DNA of 29,751 bases from IMG/VR virus record IMGVR_UViG_3300027489_000014, positions 1-29,751 of that record; one strand, given 5' to 3'. The translations under genes were made by a program, and so were the position numbers. Each line of letters begins with the position of its first letter. Within the stretch, counting starts at the first letter, position 1. This stretch comes from a virus. Shown here in pieces: positions 288 through 29,751 of this stretch. A model generated the notes under the pieces. That model was not told where the DNA came from. It did not search any database and was given only the letters and a program-made list of their open reading frames with translations.

Positions 288-2549
288 TTATATTCCGTAA
301 GGCGATGCTTTGAAGATCATTCCGGTTCTATCAGGAATTGACAGACCGCCGCCGTAAGTAACAGACTGATTGTTGTTCGTCACGTTGGTGCGGCTACTTG
401 CATCTACAACTGATGTATTATTTGCGATGCTTGCAGCATCCTTCATCGCCTGAGTTGATTGAGATGTTTCATTTAAAACTGTGCCCGTCGCATTAGTCAT
501 CGGTGTAATGCTTTCCATCGCCAAGCGCTTATCGAGCGCAGTTGTTGGCTTAAGAGTGCTCGCATATGCATCGATACGATCTAGTGCTGCTGCCTCAGCT
601 TGTGTACGAGCAGAAGATGTAGGCGCTGCTATAGCACTACCGCCGCCAGTAGCAGATGCCTCGCCGCCCAGGCCGAGCATATCCAATGCTTTGTTCGTGA
701 TATCAAATCCTACGAGTTTACCAAGTGAATTGACTGGCGCAAGTAATACCTTTATCAATCCAGCCACAATGCCCTTGAAGAAGTCTACGAAATCAATCTT
801 GCCAAGCAGCATATCCTTTAATCCTACGAATACGCCCTTGAAGTTTTCCCATACGCTTGTAAAGTAACCAGCAATTACATCGGTTATTTTACCGACTAAT
901 TCTGGCAGCGTATTCATAAAGAAATTGAATATGCCTTCGAACATTTCTTGTCCAACGTTTATGAACTCTCTAATGAAGTCCTTAAAGTTGAACATATCAA
1001 GTTCTTTTTCAATTTCTTTAAATCCAAGTTTGCCTGCAATCCAGCTGATGATGCTTTTTGGTATATCGACAAGCCATCCGATTAGGCCGTTGACTAATCC
1101 AACCATACCTTCTTTAAATTTATCACCGATGCTACCTTCCTTTTCGCTGAATCCTTTAAAGAAGTCCCAAATTCCCATTAGTATCGTCAGCGGCAAGAAT
1201 AGTTTGGCGGCAAGCTTACCTAAAAATCCAAACACCTTTCCTGCGAGTGATCCGAGCGCTTCGCCAAGCTGAAGGAATACCTTGAATGGCTTTGTGATCG
1301 CACCCCAGATTCCTTTCAGAGTATTGACTGCTTTGCCGATGATACCGATCGAATCGCCAGCGGCATCAGCGCCTTTTACCAGATTCTTGACAGAATTAAA
1401 CTTCGATACAACACTTGCGAATGCTTCCTTAACTGGCTTAAATGCATCTGCCACAAACGTAAAGAAATTCTTAACACCTGTCACCGCTGCAGTAATCTTA
1501 TTTCCCGCGGCGCTTAACAGTGTTCCAACTTTAGCAACTGTCTTTTCGATAGCTTTAAAGACAGGGTTGTCAGATATCAGGCGAATGTATGCTCTAAATC
1601 TAGAGATCATTCTTTCACCAGTCTTCATGAAGTTATCAAATGCAGTAGCTATATTCTGCCCTAAACGCGAAAACATCTCAGGTAGTTTAGATGCAATCAG
1701 TCTAGGGAGCGCCTTAATTCTGCTCCATGCGCGCTCGAATGATTTGCCGAGATCATCTATGAATTTGCCAATTGCTTTACCGAGCTTTGACTCCTTCACC
1801 ATCTTGATAATGTTTTTAAAGATAGAGCCCAGTTCCTTTGCAAGTCCAATGATGAAACCACTTGCTGCACCCAGCAATCCAGCAACCCAACCCATCAGTC
1901 CTAATTTACCATCTTCGTCTTTGTCCTTATCTTTCTTTTCTTCTGGTGGCCGCTTTGTTAATTTTTCAAGCAGCGCCATGAATTCTCGCCGATTTTCTTC
2001 TTCTTGCTGACGACGAGCGTTTGCAAGTTCCGAATCCTGCACCATCATATTAGCAATAAAACCAATATCATTAGCAATTGCTACGATTGGACGGTATAAG
2101 TCAATTACAATTGAAGATGTGGCAAATGATGTCCCCTTGATATCCACCAAGGAGCTTAGTATCTTATCAAATATTGCGACATCAAGTTTAGATTCTTCTT
2201 TTTCTTCGGCTGCTGGCGCTGCAGCTACAGCCGCCGCGATAGGAATAGATGTCGGGGCCGCCTTTGCCAAGAAATCAGAAATGTCTGTCGCTATCATTTC
2301 AGTCCATGTTGAGACATCATTCATCTCAATACGGAGCTTTTCCATCTTTTCTGTTAACTTCTTCAACCCATCACTCGATGACTTAGCTGCCTTGCTTGAT
2401 GTCGTTGATCCGCGTTTCTTTGCGGCAGGTGCTTTCTTTGATGCTGCCGCTCTTGTTTCTACTACAGGTGCAGCGGTGGGCGTGATGGACGAGGCCGTAA
2501 CATCGGGCGATGATACTATCGGATCTGTTGTCTTTTTTGTCTCGTCCAT
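288..2549 (-). CDS. Tape-measure-like tail protein, 753 aa
   Basis: This is probably the tail tape measure, which sets tail length and is threaded through the tube. The N-terminal 60 residues are rich in Ala, Thr and Lys. A predicted helical region with a charged coil follows at about 165-200, then a KDKDKDEDGK linker at about 206-215. The remainder is helical with glycine-rich hydrophobic segments near 217-237, 441-462, 483-505 and 590-614, as is usual for tape measures. The C-terminus is Asn/Ser/Thr-rich. I did not recognise clear similarity to T4 gp29 (590 aa), so the call rests on composition, size and position directly behind the gp26-like chaperone and its frameshift extension. The ATG is 6 bases after that extension's stop, suggesting coupled translation. 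At the usual 1.5 angstrom per residue it predicts a tail of roughly 110 nm. Alternatively it is another internal tail or baseplate hub protein. Confidence 0.7.
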   Translation of the reverse strand: MDETKKTTDPIVSSPDVTASSITPTAAPVVETRAAASKKAPAAKKRGSTTSSKAAKSSSDGLKKLTEKMEKLRIEMNDVSTWTEMIATDISDFLAKAAPTSIPIAAAVAAAPAAEEKEESKLDVAIFDKILSSLVDIKGTSFATSSIVIDLYRPIVAIANDIGFIANMMVQDSELANARRQQEEENRREFMALLEKLTKRPPEEKKDKDKDEDGKLGLMGWVAGLLGAASGFIIGLAKELGSIFKNIIKMVKESKLGKAIGKFIDDLGKSFERAWSRIKALPRLIASKLPEMFSRLGQNIATAFDNFMKTGERMISRFRAYIRLISDNPVFKAIEKTVAKVGTLLSAAGNKITAAVTGVKNFFTFVADAFKPVKEAFASVVSKFNSVKNLVKGADAAGDSIGIIGKAVNTLKGIWGAITKPFKVFLQLGEALGSLAGKVFGFLGKLAAKLFLPLTILMGIWDFFKGFSEKEGSIGDKFKEGMVGLVNGLIGWLVDIPKSIISWIAGKLGFKEIEKELDMFNFKDFIREFINVGQEMFEGIFNFFMNTLPELVGKITDVIAGYFTSVWENFKGVFVGLKDMLLGKIDFVDFFKGIVAGLIKVLLAPVNSLGKLVGFDITNKALDMLGLGGEASATGGGSAIAAPTSSARTQAEAAALDRIDAYASTLKPTTALDKRLAMESITPMTNATGTVLNETSQSTQAMKDAASIANNTSVVDASSRTNVTNNNQSVTYGGGLSIPDRTGMIFKASPYGI

Positions 2550-2555
2550 CGTAGT

Positions 2556-2753
2556 TTACTTTTTAGAATTGAGCTTTTGAATTCTTTCGTTTTCCTGCTT
2601 AACGTGTTCCGATAGCAGGTGAACGTAGATTTCCCTCTCCCATGGCAGCATGTCCTCAAGCTCTGTTAAACTGTAGTGGTGATGCTGCATCATTGCAAAA
2701 TTAGTCTGATAATAGTTCAGAAGATTGTCGTGAGAGAGGGCTAGTTGAAAAAA
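2556..2753 (-). CDS. -1 frameshift extension of gp26-like protein (chaperone GT-type)
   Basis: An open frame, -1 relative to the gp26-like gene, runs from the T TTT TTC heptamer near that gene's end to a TAA at 2556-2558. After slippage it adds 63 residues beginning QLALSHDN and including MMQHHHYSL, EDMLPWEREIYVHLL and a charged helical end, giving a predicted 295-residue fusion. The only internal start is an ATG pair at 2690-2693, which would give 45 residues. It has no Shine-Dalgarno sequence and would discard the NYYQTNF segment, which looks like part of the same domain. Short aromatic and His-rich extensions of this kind are typical of the T part of phage tail-assembly chaperones, which bind the tape measure. 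The tape-measure-like gene starts 6 bases after the stop. The frameshift is inferred, not shown. Confidence 0.68.
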   Translation of the reverse strand, partial: FFQLALSHDNLLNYYQTNFAMMQHHHYSLTELEDMLPWEREIYVHLLSEHVKQENERIQKLNSKK

Positions 2754-3442
2754 TTCTGCAAACCTGAGATCTCAAATTCGTTTTCCTTCTTGCACTTTTC
2801 GCACTTGAACTTGATGTCCATTTGTAGCTTAGGCATGCTGGAAATGAATTCCTGAATCTTCAGAAATTGTGCCTGATTCAGCGAATCTACGAATTCGGCA
2901 AGTTCTTCACGCTTATGCTCTGCCGCGTGATATACTCCGTCCTTATCGTAGATCGTATCGATGCAGGCGATGATGACGTTGGTGATAGCTTCTGGCGTAA
3001 GCTTAGTATCCTGGTCAGAAAGAAAGTCAGCCTTTGGATAGTTCAGCGTGATACCGACTTCGTCATTTAGCTGAATCTTCTTTTCGACCTTTTCAGGAAA
3101 CTGTACTTGTACCTCATCGAGATTGATCTCAATCTTATTGACGGCCTCACAGTGTTTGCACTTGATGCCCACACGAGAAACTTCACCAACAGATTTAGAA
3201 CGCAGCTTGAGGAACAAGTATTCGAGGTCGAACGTACACAACTTGTCAGGATCAATCTTGTTAAAAGTGCAAGAGGAAACGATGTCCTTCATTGCTGTCA
3301 TGATCTGTGAATTGCTCTTTGATTCGAGCGCGATCATCAGTATCTTCTCTTCCTTGACCAGATAAGGACGGTACATGACAGTCTTTCCGGTTGACGGAAT
3401 CTTCACTTCATACTTTGGTATATCGATTTTAGGTAGTGCCAT
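2741..3442 (-). CDS. 26: gp26-like baseplate hub assembly protein (T4_baseplate family), 233 aa
   Basis: The N-terminus, MALPKIDIPKYEVKIPSTGK followed by MYRPYLVKEEKILMIALES, matches the T4 gp26 family (Pfam T4_baseplate), which is needed to assemble the central hub. T4 gp26 is 208 aa. Two CxxC pairs, C95/C98 and C214/C217, could form a four-cysteine zinc site linking the middle and the C-terminus. The gene ends AAT TTT TTC AAC TAG, so the slippery heptamer overlaps its last codons and a longer -1 product is expected. It lies between the tube-like gene upstream (18-base gap) and the tape-measure-like gene downstream, where tail-assembly chaperones normally sit. A chaperone role is therefore inferred from context and the frameshift, and the family name from sequence resemblance. 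No Shine-Dalgarno sequence precedes the ATG. Confidence 0.85.
   Translation of the reverse strand: MALPKIDIPKYEVKIPSTGKTVMYRPYLVKEEKILMIALESKSNSQIMTAMKDIVSSCTFNKIDPDKLCTFDLEYLFLKLRSKSVGEVSRVGIKCKHCEAVNKIEINLDEVQVQFPEKVEKKIQLNDEVGITLNYPKADFLSDQDTKLTPEAITNVIIACIDTIYDKDGVYHAAEHKREELAEFVDSLNQAQFLKIQEFISSMPKLQMDIKFKCEKCKKENEFEISGLQNFFN
2747..2753 (-). promoter_or_regulatory. Candidate -1 ribosomal slippery site T TTT TTC
   Basis: Read on the minus strand in the gp26 frame, the heptamer is T TTT TTC. It fits X XXY YYZ exactly: both the P-site TTT and the A-site TTC re-pair as TTT after a -1 slip. Only AAC TAG remains in the zero frame. No strong stem-loop is obvious by eye just downstream, so a stimulator is not demonstrated. 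Confidence 0.7.
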
Positions 3443-3460: not shown

Positions 3461-3982
3461 TCAATTCACTTCATAGTCAGTAAATGCCATAGTAACTGTC
3501 ATCTTCTGCACTGAATTCTCTGCAGCATTATCGAAGCCAATTGCGCTTACAGTAATTGGAAATGCTTCTTTTAGCTTTACTTCGTAGACAACAGTATTCT
3601 CTTTGTCAAGTTGCTGAATAACAACATCGGCCGAATAATCGTTCTTGTATGCTGCTCTATATCGATTGACGTTTAATACTGTGTCAAGCCATGATTCAAA
3701 TATTCTCTTCATCGAATATTGATTTGTCAGCAAGAACGTAAATACCACTTCCTCGTTCATATAACCAGTTGGCATTTTTTCTGTCTGGCGCAACAAGCCG
3801 TAATCGGCAGTCAATATTTGCTTTCCTGGAAAGCTTGCATTTTCGCAGAGGATAGTAAATTCTTGTGGAATCGATGCAATGCCTCGAGGAGGAGTCATAA
3901 TGACGTTGAACCGATTTGTAGCAGCAAGACCGTTGCCTCGCGAGATAGCTGCCTTTAGATCGTTAATAGAATTCAGCGCCAT
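3461..3982 (-). CDS. gp19-family tail tube or tube-initiator (gp54-like) protein, 173 aa
   Basis: The protein resembles the T4 gp19 tail-tube family, which gp54 also belongs to in fold. It begins MALNSINDLKAAISRGNGLA, then has NRFNVIMTPPRG, then EFTILCENASFPGKQI and a YGLLRQTEKMPTGYMNEEVV segment typical of these proteins, and ends with a beta-rich stretch (KMTVTMAFTDYEVN). The length is close to T4 gp19 (163 aa) and far below T4 gp54 (320 aa). Whether this is the main tube subunit or the initiator that sits on gp48 cannot be decided here, because no sheath gene lies beside it. Its place before the chaperone and tape-measure-like genes matches the tube-chaperone-tape order of most tailed phages. 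It starts 2 bases after the upstream stop. AAAAGG lies 7 bases before the ATG and is one of the few weak ribosome-binding candidates here. Confidence 0.75.
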   Translation of the reverse strand: MALNSINDLKAAISRGNGLAATNRFNVIMTPPRGIASIPQEFTILCENASFPGKQILTADYGLLRQTEKMPTGYMNEEVVFTFLLTNQYSMKRIFESWLDTVLNVNRYRAAYKNDYSADVVIQQLDKENTVVYEVKLKEAFPITVSAIGFDNAAENSVQKMTVTMAFTDYEVN

Positions 3983-3984
3983 AA

Positions 3985-4581
3985 TTATGCCTTTTGGTAA
4001 ATTGACTTAGAGTCTCGCCAGACAGCAGCCTTTTGAGCACCCTTGAAATGTTCTGTGGGCAGAAAGATTGCTGTTTCCCAGTCTGGAGCCATGATCTGCG
4101 CTGGGCGCGACTTCATCTGCTCAAACAAATAATGCTTTAAACACGGAGCAAAGTAACGCATCTTTCTTGCTCTGTTCAGCAATTCATATCGAACTCTTAA
4201 CCGAGTTCGTTCTGTCAAAACATCATCAGAAATTGTTTCAAGCAGACGATCTAGAAATATTGCACGAATGCGCGGGTGTAAGTAATGCAGATTCATCCCC
4301 AGAAATCCGCCCGGTGCTGGCGCAAGCATAATGACAAGCGGAAACCTATCAAAGTATGGCAGCGTTTCTTTGTACTTTGCATCATAAAGGAACATATACA
4401 TGAATCCCCATTTTGGAAGATTCTGTTGTTTGACCTCTGTGTCTCTGAGTAACTTATTGCGATTGATGCGACCGTTGAGTTCTTTGACTCTTTCTACGAA
4501 CCAGTCTCTCGCCTCTTTCGAGCGAGCAGCATAACCAGTGCCCTGAAGCTCCTGGCGAAGCGATGAGAATAGTGATGGCAT
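3985..4581 (-). CDS. Possible gp2-like DNA end-protector / phage structural protein, 198 aa
   Basis: This looks like a conserved family of T4-type phages, with a basic helical N-terminus containing ARDWFVERVKELNGRINR. A hallmark core follows: WGFMYMFLYDAKYKETLPYF, DRFPLVIMLAPAPGGFLGMN and LHYLHPRIRAIFLDRL. The C-terminus has FAPCLKHYLF and AIFLPTEHFK. Members of such a family beside gene 4 are, to my recollection, often annotated as the DNA end protector gp2, which caps packaged DNA ends; T4 also has gene 2 next to gene 4. T4 gp2 is longer (274 aa) and I cannot confirm homology, so the name is tentative. It starts 25 bases after the gp4-like stop, downstream of its own TATAAATA box, with no Shine-Dalgarno sequence. 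It is certainly a real gene, but its function is uncertain. Confidence 0.5.
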   Translation of the reverse strand: MPSLFSSLRQELQGTGYAARSKEARDWFVERVKELNGRINRNKLLRDTEVKQQNLPKWGFMYMFLYDAKYKETLPYFDRFPLVIMLAPAPGGFLGMNLHYLHPRIRAIFLDRLLETISDDVLTERTRLRVRYELLNRARKMRYFAPCLKHYLFEQMKSRPAQIMAPDWETAIFLPTEHFKGAQKAAVWRDSKSIYQKA

Positions 4582-4606: not shown

Positions 4607-5047
4607 TCAAAGTATTTTAATCCCCAGTCCTTTCAGCGTTTCCTCAGTCCATACCTCAAACTTCCATCCTCTGTCAAGTGCATAAGCATTTGCAGCCTCC
4701 CACTTACTGATGTTTTTAGCGTATGTCATTACCTCAGTAATATACTTGCGCGTTTTCTTACCTGGGTTCTTAGGTGGCTGCGATTCTTTCTTAGGCTTGA
4801 TTTCGACAAGCAGTATGCGACCATCAGTAAACTCGATCTTTGCATCGACAAAGTAACGGTGAATCCGGCCATCTGTTTTGCAGCGGTATGGCACAATTAC
4901 TTCTTCTGATGACCATGTCTTTACAAAGTCTGCACAATCTAGCCAACGAAACAGTTGTCGCTCCCACAGAGATCGATACACAATATTGGTAATATCGCCT
5001 CGATACTTTGATGGATTCTGCGGTGAGAATTTACCCTTGTAAGACAT
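4607..5047 (-). CDS. 4: gp4-like head completion protein, putative PD-(D/E)XK nuclease fold
   Basis: This is the homologue of T4 gp4 (150 aa; here 146 aa), which completes filled heads before tail joining. The matching segments are NPSKYRGD, IVYRSLWERQLFRW, WSSEEVIVPY, HRYFVDAKIEF and LLVEIKPKKESQPPK, the last with the family's KP.K..QPPK pattern. The arrangement E29, D68 and E82-x-K84 is that of a TnsA-like PD-(D/E)XK endonuclease, so trimming of DNA ends is plausible but not proven. It is the first gene of the leftward arm. Its ATG overlaps the first base of the rightward late promoter, and its own promoter box lies 31 bases upstream, across the palindrome. No good Shine-Dalgarno sequence is seen; GAGGAA lies too far upstream. 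Confidence 0.9.
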   Translation of the reverse strand: MSYKGKFSPQNPSKYRGDITNIVYRSLWERQLFRWLDCADFVKTWSSEEVIVPYRCKTDGRIHRYFVDAKIEFTDGRILLVEIKPKKESQPPKNPGKKTRKYITEVMTYAKNISKWEAANAYALDRGWKFEVWTEETLKGLGIKIL

Positions 5048-23816: not shown

Positions 23817-26800
23817 ATGTCCACACAAGTTCTACGTACTGACACATTTGAAGCATGGCGTCAAAAGGCCAACACCGTCGCCAAAAACCTGGGTGAGGTA
23901 GCATCAATTGACTCGCGCATCAGTTATCGCACTCTGACGCACAAGGGTGCTGCTGCCTATTCGGTAGGGAATACACTGACAGGATCAGTAACGGGAGCGA
24001 CTGCCACAGTTACTGCGGTAAATGGTGTCAATCTGGTTGTCACTCCAGTAAGCGGAACATTCGTCGGCGCAGACATCATCAAGAGCAGAATTTATTTTGA
24101 TGGAGCTGGAACTATTACTGCCGGTTCTACAATTACTAGCACACAGTCTGGTGCTACTGCAAAAATACTCTCGTATGATTCAGGCGATAATTCTGCTGTA
24201 GTATATGATATTACTGGCGCGTTTTCTGTAGGCAATACGATTAGCGGGACAAGCAAGACAATCTCGAACATCTCTCTCGATACTGTATCTGATATTGGTG
24301 AAAACATCACGAATGGTACCACAGTACGAGAGCTCAATACTTATTCTGCTAGTGCAGTTGCCGGTATCAATGAGCTTCAGGCAGAAGTAGGCACAATTGC
24401 ATCTCTCAGTGGATTCAGCGCGACAAATCTTGTCGCAGTTGCAAATGAGATCAAGAATAGTGCTATCACGTTCAACGGCGCAAAGACATTTTCAGAAAGC
24501 GTAAATCTTGCTGCTACCAAAGAATTAACAATTGCCGGCACATCTGTACTAAATTCTACCACGCTAGGATCCGGAGTTGTCAATTCTTCGCTTACAACTG
24601 TAGGCACGATTGGAACAGGCACATGGCAAGGCAGCATTGTGTCATCGACATACGGCGGTACTGGCGTCAATAATGCAGGCCGTACTCTGACAATTGCCAC
24701 AGGAAATCTGACGCTGACGACAGCATCAGGTGGGTCATCGCTTACTTTACCATCAACAGGCACAGTTGCTACCCTTGCTGGTACTGAAACACTGACTAGC
24801 AAGACTATCAATCTCACGAGCAATACGCTGACAGGAACACTTACCCAGTTCAACGCAGCGCTCAGCGATGACGATTTTGCTGCCCTTGCCGCTGTTCAAA
24901 CGCTGACGAACAAATCGATTGCACTGGGATCTAACACGATCACGGGTACGTTAGCTCAGTTCAATACTGCTTTAACAGATGACGACTTTGCAGCACTTGC
25001 CGCTGTTCAAACGCTGACGAATAAAACACTTTCTACAGGATCGATCTGGCAAGGTGGTGTTATTTCTTCAACGTACGGCGGCACTGGCGTAAATAATGGC
25101 GGTCGAACACTGACGATCAATACAGGAAACGTTGTTGTCACTGCACCTGCTGGTGGATCGACGTTGACTTTACCAGGCAGTGGTACTGTTGCTACACTTG
25201 CTGGTATAGAAACGCTGACGAATAAAACCGTCAATCTTGCAAGCAACACTCTGACTGGCACGTTCGCAGAATTCAATGCTGCGCTTACTGGTGAAGATTT
25301 CGTTGGTGTAGCTGCTATTCAAACACTCAGTAATAAGTCAGTTAGCTTAACTACAAATACGCTAACAGGAACACTCGCAGAATTTAATACTGCTCTAACA
25401 GATGACGACTTTGTAGCAATTAATGCTACTCAGACAATTTCCAATAAGACATTCGTCACACCAGTTCTTGGCATTGCTACTGCTACGTCAATCAATAAGG
25501 TAGCAATTACCGCGCCGGCGACATCTGCCACACTAACAATTGCAAATGGCAAGACACTTACTGCCAGCAATACACTCACATTTACTGGTACAGATGGATC
25601 ATCAGTTGCATTTGGCGCCGGCGGAACTGTAGTTTATACCTCGAATAACATCACTGCACTTTCCACGTTTAGTTCTGCCGATCTTGCAGGCAGATTGACG
25701 GATGAAACGGGCACGGGTGTTGTGGTATTTAATAGCAGCCCATCACTCACCACTCCAACAATTGGCGGCGGTGGCGCTAATTTCTCGGGTAGCACATCAG
25801 GTACAACTAACTTTAAGGCAGCAGCTGCTGCAGGTACCACAACAATCACGATGCCAGCAGCAACTGGTACGATGGCGCTCACGAGTGATATCGGAAATGG
25901 CACTCTGACGTTATCAACCGGTGTTGGTATTGTTTCTGCTTCAGCATCATTCTCTGCAAATCAATCTGGCGCGGCATCTTACTCAATTGCACACGCTGTT
26001 CCATCTGGCGCAACTGCTGCAACACTTGGAACAAATGGTATTTCGTCGATCACCACTGATCAATTTGGACACATTACTGCAGTTACTACTGCGACTTATC
26101 TGACTGCTGCAAGCGGCGTAAGTTCAATTGCTGGAACTGCAAATCAGATTACTGCATCTGCAAGTGTGGGTGCGGTAACACTTTCGCTGCCGCAGAATAT
26201 TCATACAGCCGCTGAACCAACATTCGGCGGAGCAACGCTGGGCAATATCACAGTTGGTGTATCGACAGACAACACGATTACCACATCATCTGGTAATCTG
26301 ATTCTGACTGCAGCTGGCACATCTACAGTAAATGCTTCGCGTCCTCTTGTAGCAGCTACAGCTCTTACAAATACTAATAAAGCAACTGTATTTTCGGTCA
26401 GCAATAGCAGCGCAGGTGCGGGCGCAGATTTCCCATACAATCCAACTCAATCAACACGCTTTAGCATTGATTCGACTGGTAACGTCACTATCAATGGTGA
26501 CCTTACTGTTGCTGGTACAACATACCTCCCAACAATCAGTGGTACCGTTGCATGGAGCACTCAGGTTACAGGAAAGACTTATTTCGGATCGATTACAGAT
26601 GGTACTACAGCTGCAGCACCCGGTGATGGTACCGCATTTAAGATCCGTACGAAGGACGGCCTGACAGCAGTCGTCACAAATGATGACGCAACTCACGGCG
26701 ACAATGTTCTGTTTGGGCATGGTAACTCTATAACAATTTACGGATCAACCAGCGGATCTGTTGTCCTGCAACCAGTGGCTGTCGCAGGCACAACCACTAT

Positions 26801-29751
26801 TACTCTTCCTGCAATTACTGGTACTGTTGTAACAACTGGAGATTCTGGTACAGTTACAAATGCGATGTTGGCTGGATCAATTGCCACTAACAAGTTAGTA
26901 AGTAGCTCGCTTACTGTATCTGCAGGAACTGGTCTAGGCGGTGGTGGATCAGTGTCACTTGGTGGATCTGTTACTCTGACTAATGCAGGAGTGCTGAGCG
27001 TCAATTCGCAAACTGGCGCAGTAACGATTGCTGGTGGTACTGCAATTTCTGTAACACAAGCAAGCGGCACAGTAACTATCACAAATACCGGTGTTACTTC
27101 GGCAGCATCCGGCACTGGTATTTCGATTTCTGGTACGGGTGTGGGCCCATATACCGGAGCAATCACGATCACAAATTCTGATAAAGGATCAGATCAGGCT
27201 ATCTTTAAGAATATTGCTGTTACTGGTCAAACAACAGTTAGTGCTGCATCAAACACTGCTACACTAAATCTAGTTGGTAGTAACATTACAATTACTACAG
27301 ACAATACCACAAAGACAGTTACTTTAACAGGTAATGCTGCTGCGAATAATGGAACAATTACTGTATCTGCTGGCACCGGAATGTCTGGCGGCGGATCATT
27401 TACCGTAAATCAAAGCGGCAATTCTACAGTAACGCTCACAAATTCTGATCCAGGATCTAGCCAATTTATCTTTAAGAACGTTGCTGTTCCTGGACAGACT
27501 ACAATTGTCGCAGATACCAACAATGATACTCTGACCGTACAAGCCGGCCAGGTTGATTCTACGACAGGTATCGTAATTACAACTGATGCTACAACTGACA
27601 CTCTGACAATTGCTCATGCTAATACGTCCGGGCAAGCATCGGTTGATAACGCAAATGGAACAGTAATTCAGGATATCACACTTGATACTTACGGTCATAT
27701 TACTGCAATTGCTAGCGTAGATCTAGATGCACGTTATGATGCTCGCTATACGCTCGACAAGGTCACAACAGCTGGCGCGACAACTGCGAATGCAATTACC
27801 GTCGGTGGTTTAACTGTCAACGGTAACGTTACTGTCAATGGTACCACAACTTCCGTTAATACTACAACAGCAAACCTAAAAGATCCAATCGTCACTCTGG
27901 GCGGCGCCGATAATGGCGGTAATGCTACAAGCGATGATGCAAAGGATCGCGGTATTGAATTCCGCTGGCACAACGGCACTATTGCAAAGACTGGATTCTT
28001 TGGATGGGATCGCAGCACAAGTTCATTCACATTTATCGCAGATGCTACAAATACAAACGAAGTATTTGCGCCTGTTTCTGGCGCTAGTTTGGGAGCAATT
28101 CGTGCAGGAAGTTTTTCTACCGGTGGTGCAGCAACCCAATTCCTAAAGGCTGACGGATCACTTGATAGCAACACATATCTGACAGCTTCAACCGGCGTTT
28201 CGTCGATTAATCTTGGTAATATTATTGGTGGTACATTTCAATCTGTTGGAAGTCTAAATGGTGGTGTCAATGTTTCTATTCTCAGTCCACTAACAGGAAG
28301 TCTAACAGGCCCCAATGCTTTAGTAATTGAAATGCTGACTCAGTCTGGTTTGACTGCCGGAGTATATAATAACGTTACTGTAAATACAAAGGGCATCGTT
28401 ACTGCTGCATCGAATGTTGCGTACCTGACATCCAATCCAAATCTGCAGACTGTCTGCAATGTCGGAAACACAACGACGACTAGCATTACAGCTGGATCAT
28501 TCGTTAAATCTGGTGCGTTCTCGACTGATATTCTGAAGGGCGACGGATCAACAGAAAGCGATAGCAATTACGTCAAAACTTCTGGAGTTCAAACGATTGG
28601 CGGGACTAAAGTATTCAGTGCTAATGTTGGAATTGGTACTTCTGGACTATCTAGTGTTCCATTACATATCAATCTTACTCTCGATCCAAGTTCATTGGCT
28701 GTTCCACCAAGATCAATTTGGGCAAGGCCAACATTTAGGTTAAGTAACACAAGTAATACTGGAGTTGAAGGAATTCAAGTTCAACCTACGGTTGATACTG
28801 CCTTCTGGGGAGAAACTACTAGCACCCAAATAACTTATAAAGGAATACGCATCGGAGGTGTTCTAAAGACCGGCACCACAGCAATTACTGAAACAGTTGG
28901 ACTTTATATCGATAACTCCACACAGGGTACTACAAATAATTATGCAATTTACAGTGCTCATACTGGAGCATCTGTTTTCTCTGGAAGTGTTACTGCTACA
29001 TCGTTGATTAAGTCCGGCGGAAGTTCTTCACAACTTCTACAAGCTGACGGCGGAAGTGATAGTGTGACTCAAACGAGAGCTTCTGTAGCATATCTCACCA
29101 CCTCTGCTATCAATGTAGTAAATGGAATTGTGAAATGCAACGGCGGCGGAACATATTCTGCAGCTGTTGCTGACACTGATTACCTCACACCAGCTGGGGC
29201 TAGCGCGGCGTATCAGCCAAAGGACGCCGACCTGACAGCAATTGCTGGATTAAGTGGAACGAGCGGATTACTTAGAAAGACTGCAGCTGATACCTGGTCA
29301 TTAGATACAACAGCATACCTGTCAGGAACAGTGGGAGTCGCAAATGGTGGTACTGGAGCAACAACATTTGCAGCAGGATATTTAAAGGCATCTGGTACTT
29401 CTGCGTTTACCACAGTATCATCGATATCATATGCAGATTTATATGGGACTCCATCTCTTCCAACCGATATTGCAACCAGTGCTACAATTTCTGCAGGAGC
29501 AATTACTGGTGGCGCAGAAATTGTAGTAAATTATGCAACGAAAAACGTTGCCTCTGGAACTACTGGAGGTGGCGGCACTTCAGTAAATTTACTGGGTGGA
29601 TCAGCGATCACTGTAACTCGTAGCAGTAATAATGTTACCATCACAAACTCCGGTGTCACTTCAGTTACACAGGGTACCGGTATTACTGTATCTGCCGGCA
29701 CCGGTGCAGTAACTATCACAAACTCCGGCGTCACTTCGATCACTGGCACAT
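23817..29751 (+). CDS. Very long tail fibre protein, 3' end beyond window (at least 1978 aa)
   Basis: I followed the reading frame by hand from the ATG at 23817 to the window end without a stop. The N-terminus, LRTDTFEAWRQKANTVAKNL, is an attachment-type start seen in marine T4-like fibre proteins. Two SGATA beta modules follow (about 50-155). A 141-residue unit (TWQG..SSTYGGTGVNN) is then duplicated at about 269-551. After that comes a mosaic of fibre motifs: GHITAV (about 750 and 1295), FKNIAVTGQTT (about 1130), LTVNGNVTVNGTTTSVN with DRGIEFRWHNGTIAKTGFFG (about 1330-1390), NNYAIYS (about 1708) and AYQPKDADLTAIAGLSG (about 1800). Composition is dominated by Thr, Gly, Ala, Ser and Asn. It is presumed to bind the host surface. 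The receptor-binding tip, if C-terminal, is not in the window. Confidence 0.9.
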   Translation, partial: MSTQVLRTDTFEAWRQKANTVAKNLGEVASIDSRISYRTLTHKGAAAYSVGNTLTGSVTGATATVTAVNGVNLVVTPVSGTFVGADIIKSRIYFDGAGTITAGSTITSTQSGATAKILSYDSGDNSAVVYDITGAFSVGNTISGTSKTISNISLDTVSDIGENITNGTTVRELNTYSASAVAGINELQAEVGTIASLSGFSATNLVAVANEIKNSAITFNGAKTFSESVNLAATKELTIAGTSVLNSTTLGSGVVNSSLTTVGTIGTGTWQGSIVSSTYGGTGVNNAGRTLTIATGNLTLTTASGGSSLTLPSTGTVATLAGTETLTSKTINLTSNTLTGTLTQFNAALSDDDFAALAAVQTLTNKSIALGSNTITGTLAQFNTALTDDDFAALAAVQTLTNKTLSTGSIWQGGVISSTYGGTGVNNGGRTLTINTGNVVVTAPAGGSTLTLPGSGTVATLAGIETLTNKTVNLASNTLTGTFAEFNAALTGEDFVGVAAIQTLSNKSVSLTTNTLTGTLAEFNTALTDDDFVAINATQTISNKTFVTPVLGIATATSINKVAITAPATSATLTIANGKTLTASNTLTFTGTDGSSVAFGAGGTVVYTSNNITALSTFSSADLAGRLTDETGTGVVVFNSSPSLTTPTIGGGGANFSGSTSGTTNFKAAAAAGTTTITMPAATGTMALTSDIGNGTLTLSTGVGIVSASASFSANQSGAASYSIAHAVPSGATAATLGTNGISSITTDQFGHITAVTTATYLTAASGVSSIAGTANQITASASVGAVTLSLPQNIHTAAEPTFGGATLGNITVGVSTDNTITTSSGNLILTAAGTSTVNASRPLVAATALTNTNKATVFSVSNSSAGAGADFPYNPTQSTRFSIDSTGNVTINGDLTVAGTTYLPTISGTVAWSTQVTGKTYFGSITDGTTAAAPGDGTAFKIRTKDGLTAVVTNDDATHGDNVLFGHGNSITIYGSTSGSVVLQPVAVAGTTTITLPAITGTVVTTGDSGTVTNAMLAGSIATNKLVSSSLTVSAGTGLGGGGSVSLGGSVTLTNAGVLSVNSQTGAVTIAGGTAISVTQASGTVTITNTGVTSAASGTGISISGTGVGPYTGAITITNSDKGSDQAIFKNIAVTGQTTVSAASNTATLNLVGSNITITTDNTTKTVTLTGNAAANNGTITVSAGTGMSGGGSFTVNQSGNSTVTLTNSDPGSSQFIFKNVAVPGQTTIVADTNNDTLTVQAGQVDSTTGIVITTDATTDTLTIAHANTSGQASVDNANGTVIQDITLDTYGHITAIASVDLDARYDARYTLDKVTTAGATTANAITVGGLTVNGNVTVNGTTTSVNTTTANLKDPIVTLGGADNGGNATSDDAKDRGIEFRWHNGTIAKTGFFGWDRSTSSFTFIADATNTNEVFAPVSGASLGAIRAGSFSTGGAATQFLKADGSLDSNTYLTASTGVSSINLGNIIGGTFQSVGSLNGGVNVSILSPLTGSLTGPNALVIEMLTQSGLTAGVYNNVTVNTKGIVTAASNVAYLTSNPNLQTVCNVGNTTTTSITAGSFVKSGAFSTDILKGDGSTESDSNYVKTSGVQTIGGTKVFSANVGIGTSGLSSVPLHINLTLDPSSLAVPPRSIWARPTFRLSNTSNTGVEGIQVQPTVDTAFWGETTSTQITYKGIRIGGVLKTGTTAITETVGLYIDNSTQGTTNNYAIYSAHTGASVFSGSVTATSLIKSGGSSSQLLQADGGSDSVTQTRASVAYLTTSAINVVNGIVKCNGGGTYSAAVADTDYLTPAGASAAYQPKDADLTAIAGLSGTSGLLRKTAADTWSLDTTAYLSGTVGVANGGTGATTFAAGYLKASGTSAFTTVSSISYADLYGTPSLPTDIATSATISAGAITGGAEIVVNYATKNVASGTTGGGGTSVNLLGGSAITVTRSSNNVTITNSGVTSVTQGTGITVSAGTGAVTITNSGVTSITGT
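24621..25454 (+). repeat. Tandem 141-residue duplication with inner 37-residue repeats in the fibre
   Basis: The unit starting at W270 (24624) recurs at W411 (25047), 423 bases later. Each copy has TYGGTGVNN, a TLTLP.(S/T)GTVATLAG segment and two 37-residue subunits of the type SNTLTGTL.(Q/E)FN.AL.D.DF..LAA.QTL.NK. Stretches such as GCCGCTGTTCAAACGCTGAC are identical between subunits, so exchange between copies is fairly recent. Confidence 0.85.

Follow-up and report, generated by a model that had tools for sequence, protein, structure and literature searches.

Sequence evidence for a predicted programmed -1 frameshift between a gp26-like gene and a gp51-like extension in an uncultivated T4-like phage

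In an IMG/VR virus contig of 29,751 bases (IMGVR_UViG_3300027489_000014), analysed here over its whole length and referred to as the window, a gp26-like gene ends beside a short run of T residues, and a second open frame continues past its stop almost to the tape measure gene. This raises the question of whether some ribosomes slip back by one base at the T run and so make a longer form of the gp26-like protein, or whether the second frame is a small gene of its own, the outcome of slippage during transcription, or an artefact of the sequence. The features needed for the argument are the following.

2741..3442, minus strand: gp26-like baseplate hub or putative tail assembly chaperone short form (TAC-N), 233 aa, matching PF12322 and phrog_150
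2753-2747, minus strand: slippery heptamer T_TTT_TTC, predicted -1 shift site, by direct reading
2743-2741, minus strand: zero-frame gp26 stop TAG, one codon (AAC) after the heptamer
2556..2753, minus strand: -1 frame extension, Phe-Phe plus 63 codons and the stop TAA (2558-2556), resembling the C-terminal part of gp51 (phrog_634)
2762..2766, minus strand: CAGGT, separated from the heptamer by 8 nt, a 5' SD-like stimulator that would be weak at most
288..2549, minus strand: tape measure protein, 753 aa, ATG at 2549-2547 (phrog_305, 2.4e-16)
3461..3982, minus strand: tail tube or tube initiator-like protein, the upstream neighbour (phrog_45, 3.1e-35)

Read on the minus strand, the 3' end of the gp26-like gene is ...CAG AAT TTT TTC AAC TAG. 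The preliminary description of this DNA had claimed a slippery heptamer near the gp26-like stop, a -1 frame open for 63 codons after the Phe-Phe pair, a predicted fusion of 295 aa and a tape-measure-like ATG 6 bases beyond the -1 stop. All of these were found as described, with correct coordinates and lengths; the predicted fusion (TAC-NC) consists of gp26 residues 1-232 plus 63 residues of the extension. The gp26-like gene matched PF12322 with E 3.1e-63 (213.8 bits, cut-off 24.5) and phrog_150, a baseplate hub family, with 1.8e-69. Given the phrog_305 match of the next gene, the putative chaperone locus lies directly upstream of a tape-measure gene, as do the lambda-type G/GT genes.

The upstream neighbour also matched PF06841 (6.8e-6), slightly under the Pfam cut-off. 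Beyond it, a DNA end protector (gp2-like; phrog_429, 2.1e-52) adjoins the tail genes at 3985-4581 (minus strand), and a head closure (gp4-like) protein at 4607-5047 (minus strand) showed a match to the TnsA-like endonuclease N-terminal family PF08722 (2.8e-15). A repetitive ORF, fibre-like by eye and 1978 aa long so far, runs off the contig end at 23817-29750 (plus strand).

We consider it very probable (roughly 93%) that this is a T4-like tail assembly chaperone locus, at which a programmed -1 slip yields TAC-N (gp26) and TAC-NC (gp26-gp51C), the two forms chaperoning the tape measure protein. Most ribosomes would finish gp26 and give the 233-aa short form. A minority, with Phe-tRNAs in both the P and the A site at T_TTT_TTC, would move back by one base, thereby escape the stop and continue through the extension to give the long form. 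The tape-measure protein from the neighbouring gene would then be coated by both forms, of which the long one would recruit tube or hub subunits. The slipping itself, its rate and the binding partners are what we infer from the sequence. As a precedent, the experiments described in passages of PMC3711429 measured slippage of 6% and 7% at two tail chaperone sites of the HK97-like kind. The preliminary description had assigned tape-measure binding to the extension, or T part. This appears to be the less likely assignment, because in lambda, according to passages of PMC5009743, the G part binds the tape measure and the T part binds the major tail subunit. By the same analogy, the expected partners of the extension are tail-tube subunits and not the tape measure.

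To place the window among its relatives, gp26 loci were collected from phage records and viral contigs. By tblastn, 659 phage records contained a gp26 relative at E up to 1e-3, including 462 named Synechococcus, Prochlorococcus or Cyanophage. The set comprised 195 loci and the window, and it is biased to nearer relatives because one viral-contig scan was limited to its best 80 of 333 and another to its best 80 of 597; queries with the gp26 of KVP40, RL2RES, YB07 and K475 returned 2, 1, 2 and 0 viral-contig loci, respectively. Two rows were dropped, namely L108, in which the ORF ran off the contig end, and L116, which is the window itself, and the second-hit rows of five loci (L091, L092, L111, L112 and L115) were left out as gp26. 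Fourteen loci were T4-type, of which 13, several of them near-identical, were counted.

Of the 182 non-T4-type loci, 180, among them the window, carried T_TTT_TTN in frame and no more than 60 nt from the gp26 stop, as did 14 of 15 named non-T4-type records that were read singly; the presence of the heptamer in 180 of 182 loci indicates that it is not there by chance. Carriers with names include KVP40, Aeh1, RL2RES, OLIVR5, DLP6, YB07, Milchi, Mosig, Melnitz-2 and several cyanophages, and the two loci without the heptamer were those of Vibrio phage K475 and L105. The 180 heptamer loci represent 145 distinct 80-nt contexts and 114 gp26 proteins under 85% identity. As a control, Phe-Phe codon pairs were counted in ORFs of at least 150 aa on both strands of the 114 loci, giving TTCTTT 229, TTTTTT 180, TTCTTC 80 and TTTTTC 60, and 47 of the 240 TTTTTY pairs among these other Phe-Phe pairs were preceded by T. 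One codon separated the heptamer from the stop in 148 of the 180 loci, and the stop was TAG in 129. In 12 loci, for example L082 and L144, the zero-frame stop lay 8 codons past the heptamer and not 0-2.

The heptamer was written TTTTTTC in 116 of the 180 loci, TTTTTTT in 55, TTTTTTA in seven and TTTTTTG in two. Since the site is a homopolymer run, and T_TTT_TTT is found in those 55 loci, slippage of the RNA polymerase on the T run could be imagined, producing a mixture of mRNAs some of which are in the other frame. However, the window has six T only, the commonest form of the site (TTTTTTC) ends in C, and the bacterial transcriptional slippage described in passages of PMC5009743 concerns runs of 9 A or T. 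Both the placing of the heptamer relative to the codons and the spacing of the SD-like element (see below) fit slippage by the ribosome. We consider a transcriptional origin very improbable.

Ribosomal slippage into the -1 frame was consistent with the reading frames that follow the heptamer. Measured from the slip, the -1 frame was 58-72 codons long in 175 of 175 judgeable loci, and the +1 frame after the stop stayed open for a median of 5 and a maximum of 45 codons. Five of the 180 loci were left out of this count: L003, L010, L035 and L037, which reach a contig end, and L100 (Synechococcus phage S-SCSM1, 2490-2680), in which the heptamer is kept, a stop ends the -1 frame 2 codons on and the extension is found in the +1 frame, a change of frame that is an indel or a sequence error. 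In L105, around 3241-3260, the slip run is one T shorter than in the Stenotrophomonas phage relatives L104 and L089, so that gp26 is in frame with part of the extension; the missing T is probably a sequence error and possibly a real change. These two loci show that indels do occur in the records, and one might suppose that the window likewise bears a sequencing error, or a decayed gene, in what was once a single gp26-gp51C frame. The same arrangement in all judgeable loci, from many lineages, and the selection acting on the -1 frame speak so strongly against this supposition that we give it hardly any credence.

Next, we analysed the extension itself. It matched phrog_634, the "baseplate hub assembly catalyst" family that corresponds to gp51, with 6.3e-27, and the very end of phrog_150 with 5.1e-8; judged by these matches, the extension is the C-terminal part of gp51. 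Its conservation as a protein was evident in an alignment of 111 of the 114 loci nonredundant at 85% identity, in which His8 was kept in 102 loci, Asn18 in 107, Pro37 in 110, Glu39 in 111 and Arg40 in 104.

The main alternative to frameshifting is that this extension is translated as a separate small gene, gp51, starting from internal Met codons (2693-2688 in the window) or by re-initiation at the gp26 stop. Annotators have made such a choice in S-RSM4 and Pelagibacter phage Mosig, where a 44-aa gp51 is called from an internal Met. Substitutions in the -1 frame bear directly on this point. In the 18 columns before the Met column they were distributed 3156/1955/5945 over codon positions 1/2/3 (820 pairs), and from the Met column onward 4797/2540/7773 (453 pairs). 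The third-position excess is present before as well as after the Met column, and therefore the segment between slip and Met is protein-coding in the -1 frame, which is a prediction of frameshifting and not of a separate start at that Met. In addition, the Met column holds Met in 75 of the 111 loci only, and in only 15 of 111 did one of the candidate starts tested have SD pairing that reached -5 kcal/mol. In the window, ATG occurs in the -1 frame first at codons 21-22 of the extension, and the best SD pairing over the candidate starts tested was -2.1 kcal/mol; for these two reasons the earlier statement that the extension has no credible separate start is right.

An ATG overlaps the gp26 stop in the -1 frame, in addition to the heptamer, in 8 of the 180 loci, from about four lineages (L085, L087, L089, L095 and L101-L104), including Vibrio phage KVP40, Rhizobium phage RL2RES and Stenotrophomonas phage YB07. 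In these eight loci re-initiation could therefore add free gp51C, and both routes, slip and re-initiation, might be in use. Vibrio phage K475 (L096, 3190-3405) goes further: it has no T_TTT_TTN, its sequence reads CTTTTTG and then TAATGATGG, and beyond the stop its -1 frame continues for 60 codons. The preliminary description had named a separately initiated extension in a slip-less homologue as evidence against its reading; this single record, with TAATG at the stop, is such a case, and the extension may start by re-initiation instead of a slip in the K475 lineage. The window has no ATG at its gp26 stop, and we consider a separate gene without frameshifting very unlikely.

In 15 annotated non-T4-type phage records that were examined, the two frames are never joined, and gp51 is given a later start, labelled hypothetical or omitted. 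A programmed slip would mean that gene calls at this locus are wrong or missing.

We then analysed the sequences flanking the heptamer for possible stimulators of the slip. For the SD tests, the 180 loci were reduced to 114 at 85% identity, and the observed pairing was compared with synonymous shuffles, which ignore relatedness. SD-like pairing 8-11 nt before the heptamer exceeded what synonymous recoding produces; at a spacer of 8 its mean was -5.02, compared with -4.15 after recoding (z -8.7), and none of 200 shuffles reached the observed mean with 114, 57, 28 or 14 representatives. At a control spacing of 14-19, it was reached by 43, 77, 70 and 15 of 200 shuffles at the same levels of redundancy. 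GGAG, GAGG, AGGA or AAGG ended 8-11 nt before the slip in 87 of the 114 nonredundant loci and was absent from 27, the window included, and pairing of -5 kcal/mol or better was found in 53 of 114. According to passages of PMC5009743, SD stimulators of -1 shifts sit 9-14 nt before the shift site; neither a 5' SD-like element nor a 3' structure is obligatory for such a shift. Several results speak against reading the element as a stimulator, among them the 27 loci without the 4-mer. A second SD-like peak was detected at a spacer of 23-26 (z -3.5 to -7.0); the next 18-nt interval upstream gave z -2.9, and four intervals further up were within 0.5. The motif AGAGG occupies the same place in the slip-less gp26 of T4, and therefore the SD-like motif may be partly driven by the protein or inherited.

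Downstream of the slip, predicted RNA structure in the family exceeded that of shuffled sequences on average (mean z -1.51, compared with -0.39 and -0.23 in control stretches), and no hairpin common to the whole family was seen. Five loci (L175, L185, L190, L191 and L195) share a strong predicted hairpin about 5 nt after the slip, where the folded stretch began. By eye, L190 differs from the others by one matched pair change on both arms, and L166 is without the hairpin. This hairpin looks like a lineage-specific stimulator. The stimulators of the window itself look weak: its SD-like pairing was -3.2 kcal/mol, compared with a family mean of -5.3, and folding without pseudoknots found no unusual downstream RNA structure in it (z -0.51 and +0.61).

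The fold of gp26 was also predicted. The AlphaFold2 model of gp26 had a mean pLDDT of 88.1, and its residues 1-94 matched three structures: 3fgx_A (Z 7.9, the top row), 2ob9_A, the HK97 tail assembly chaperone (Z 7.5; 83 residues, within gp26 residues 1-85, superposed at 3.9 A, with 8% identity over the aligned part), and 3klu, YqbN (Z 6.8). The next row had Z 2.6, about 4 Z units below these three. Like 2ob9, 3fgx and 3klu are tail chaperones, of prophage origin. Foldseek alone placed 2ob9 second with E 1.0. Since the match spans the N-terminal 94 of 233 residues, and Z below 8 can reflect a common arrangement, the model supports with moderate strength a tail assembly chaperone fold in the N-terminal part of gp26. 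In the model of T4-type gp51 (mean pLDDT 87.5), VIA-align gave no tail chaperone row, the best being C1QBP with Z 5.0; these rows mainly cover residues 103-174 and 206-245, and the N-terminal part is barely covered. Against PDB sequences, the best E values were 0.015 for the gp26 alignment and 0.1 for the gp51 alignment, both to unrelated proteins. A possible zinc-ribbon part of gp26 had Pfam matches below cut-off. Together with the conservation of the heptamer and frame and the phrog_305 match of the following gene, the HK97-chaperone-like model supports the proposal that a G/GT-like pair is made here by a predicted -1 slip before the tape-measure gene.

Finally, we compared the window with T4, in which genes 26 and 51 lie on opposite strands, as they also do in FBB1, AS-gz and STP4-a. 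T4 gp26 and gp51 both matched PF12322 (8.8e-64 and 3.9e-52) and phrog_150, which T4 gp51 matched over residues 3-248, extension included. Direct BLASTP of the two T4 proteins gave E 2e-6, and by eye the C-terminal end of T4-type gp51 lines up with the extension of the window. On this evidence, T4 gp51 is a single-frame paralogue of gp26, made up of a gp26-like domain and the extension. None of the 13 T4-type gp26 genes carries a slip heptamer; in nine of the 13, several of them near-identical, Phe-Phe is kept but written TTC TTT.

These observations may be combined in a wider reading, which we offer tentatively and at slightly less than even odds. The frameshift arrangement would be ancestral in T4-like phages and tuned by the SD-like element 8-11 nt upstream and by lineage-specific hairpins. 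The T4 group would have replaced it by duplication, with gp51 as the frozen single-frame form of the frameshift product and with gp26 losing slippage while mostly keeping Phe-Phe (TTT TTY to TTC TTT). The comparison amounts to a natural experiment, in which one phage group would make the two forms by ribosomal slippage and another makes them by two genes, and it would give the essential but puzzling gp26 and gp51 of T4 a clear role as tape-measure chaperones.

How far this has been anticipated can be judged from the literature. An abstract of 2022 by Vladimirov and colleagues reportedly states that several T4-like groups have kept the frameshift and that T4 genes 26 and 51 provide the two forms. 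Passages of PMC12846349 cite that work (Vladimirov, Gautam & Davidson 2022, Virology 566:9-15) for T4-like phages whose TAC-N genes carry polyT slip signals, and passages of PMC10885494 cite it for a division, in some T4-like phages, between a short gene and a long fused one; in 2016, the corresponding passages of PMC5009743 had described G-T frameshifting as conserved in long-tailed phages except T4. The unification of T4-type and lambda-type chaperones proposed in the preliminary description is therefore not new: as far as these passages go, the principle of a frameshifted chaperone in T4-like phages is already published, and the window adds one member. An SD stimulator for T4-like gp26 does not appear in the passages of PMC10885494, PMC5009743 and PMC3711429, which treat SD elements in general or for other genes; since the literature covered was openly licensed papers only, neither the SD-like 4-mer nor the TTC TTT recoding can be called new.

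Among the known systems, the T4-like chaperones of Vladimirov et al. are the closest, the window being a contig of an uncultivated T4-like phage that shows the frameshift form of the locus. T4 gp26/gp51 (Straboviridae, Tevenvirinae) belong to the same protein families as the window pair. Unlike the window, T4 has separate genes, its gp51 has a gp26-like domain of its own and its gp26 has no slip; this arrangement fits the view, given in passages of PMC10885494, that some T4-like phages have one short gene and, apart from it, a long fused gene. The HK97 tail assembly chaperone (2ob9) has a fold like that predicted for the N-terminal part of gp26; beyond that part, gp26 has about 140 more residues. 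In lambda, the G/GT genes lie upstream of the tape-measure gene and the slip site is G_GGA_AAG. The lambda pair gpG/gpGT and its P2 counterpart resemble the window pair in that two forms arise through a -1 slip close to where the short form ends (passages of PMC5009743). Lambda-type chaperones are absent from the virion in both forms. Compared with G/GT, the gp26 of the window is longer, has a possible zinc-ribbon part and has T_TTT_TTC as its predicted slip site.
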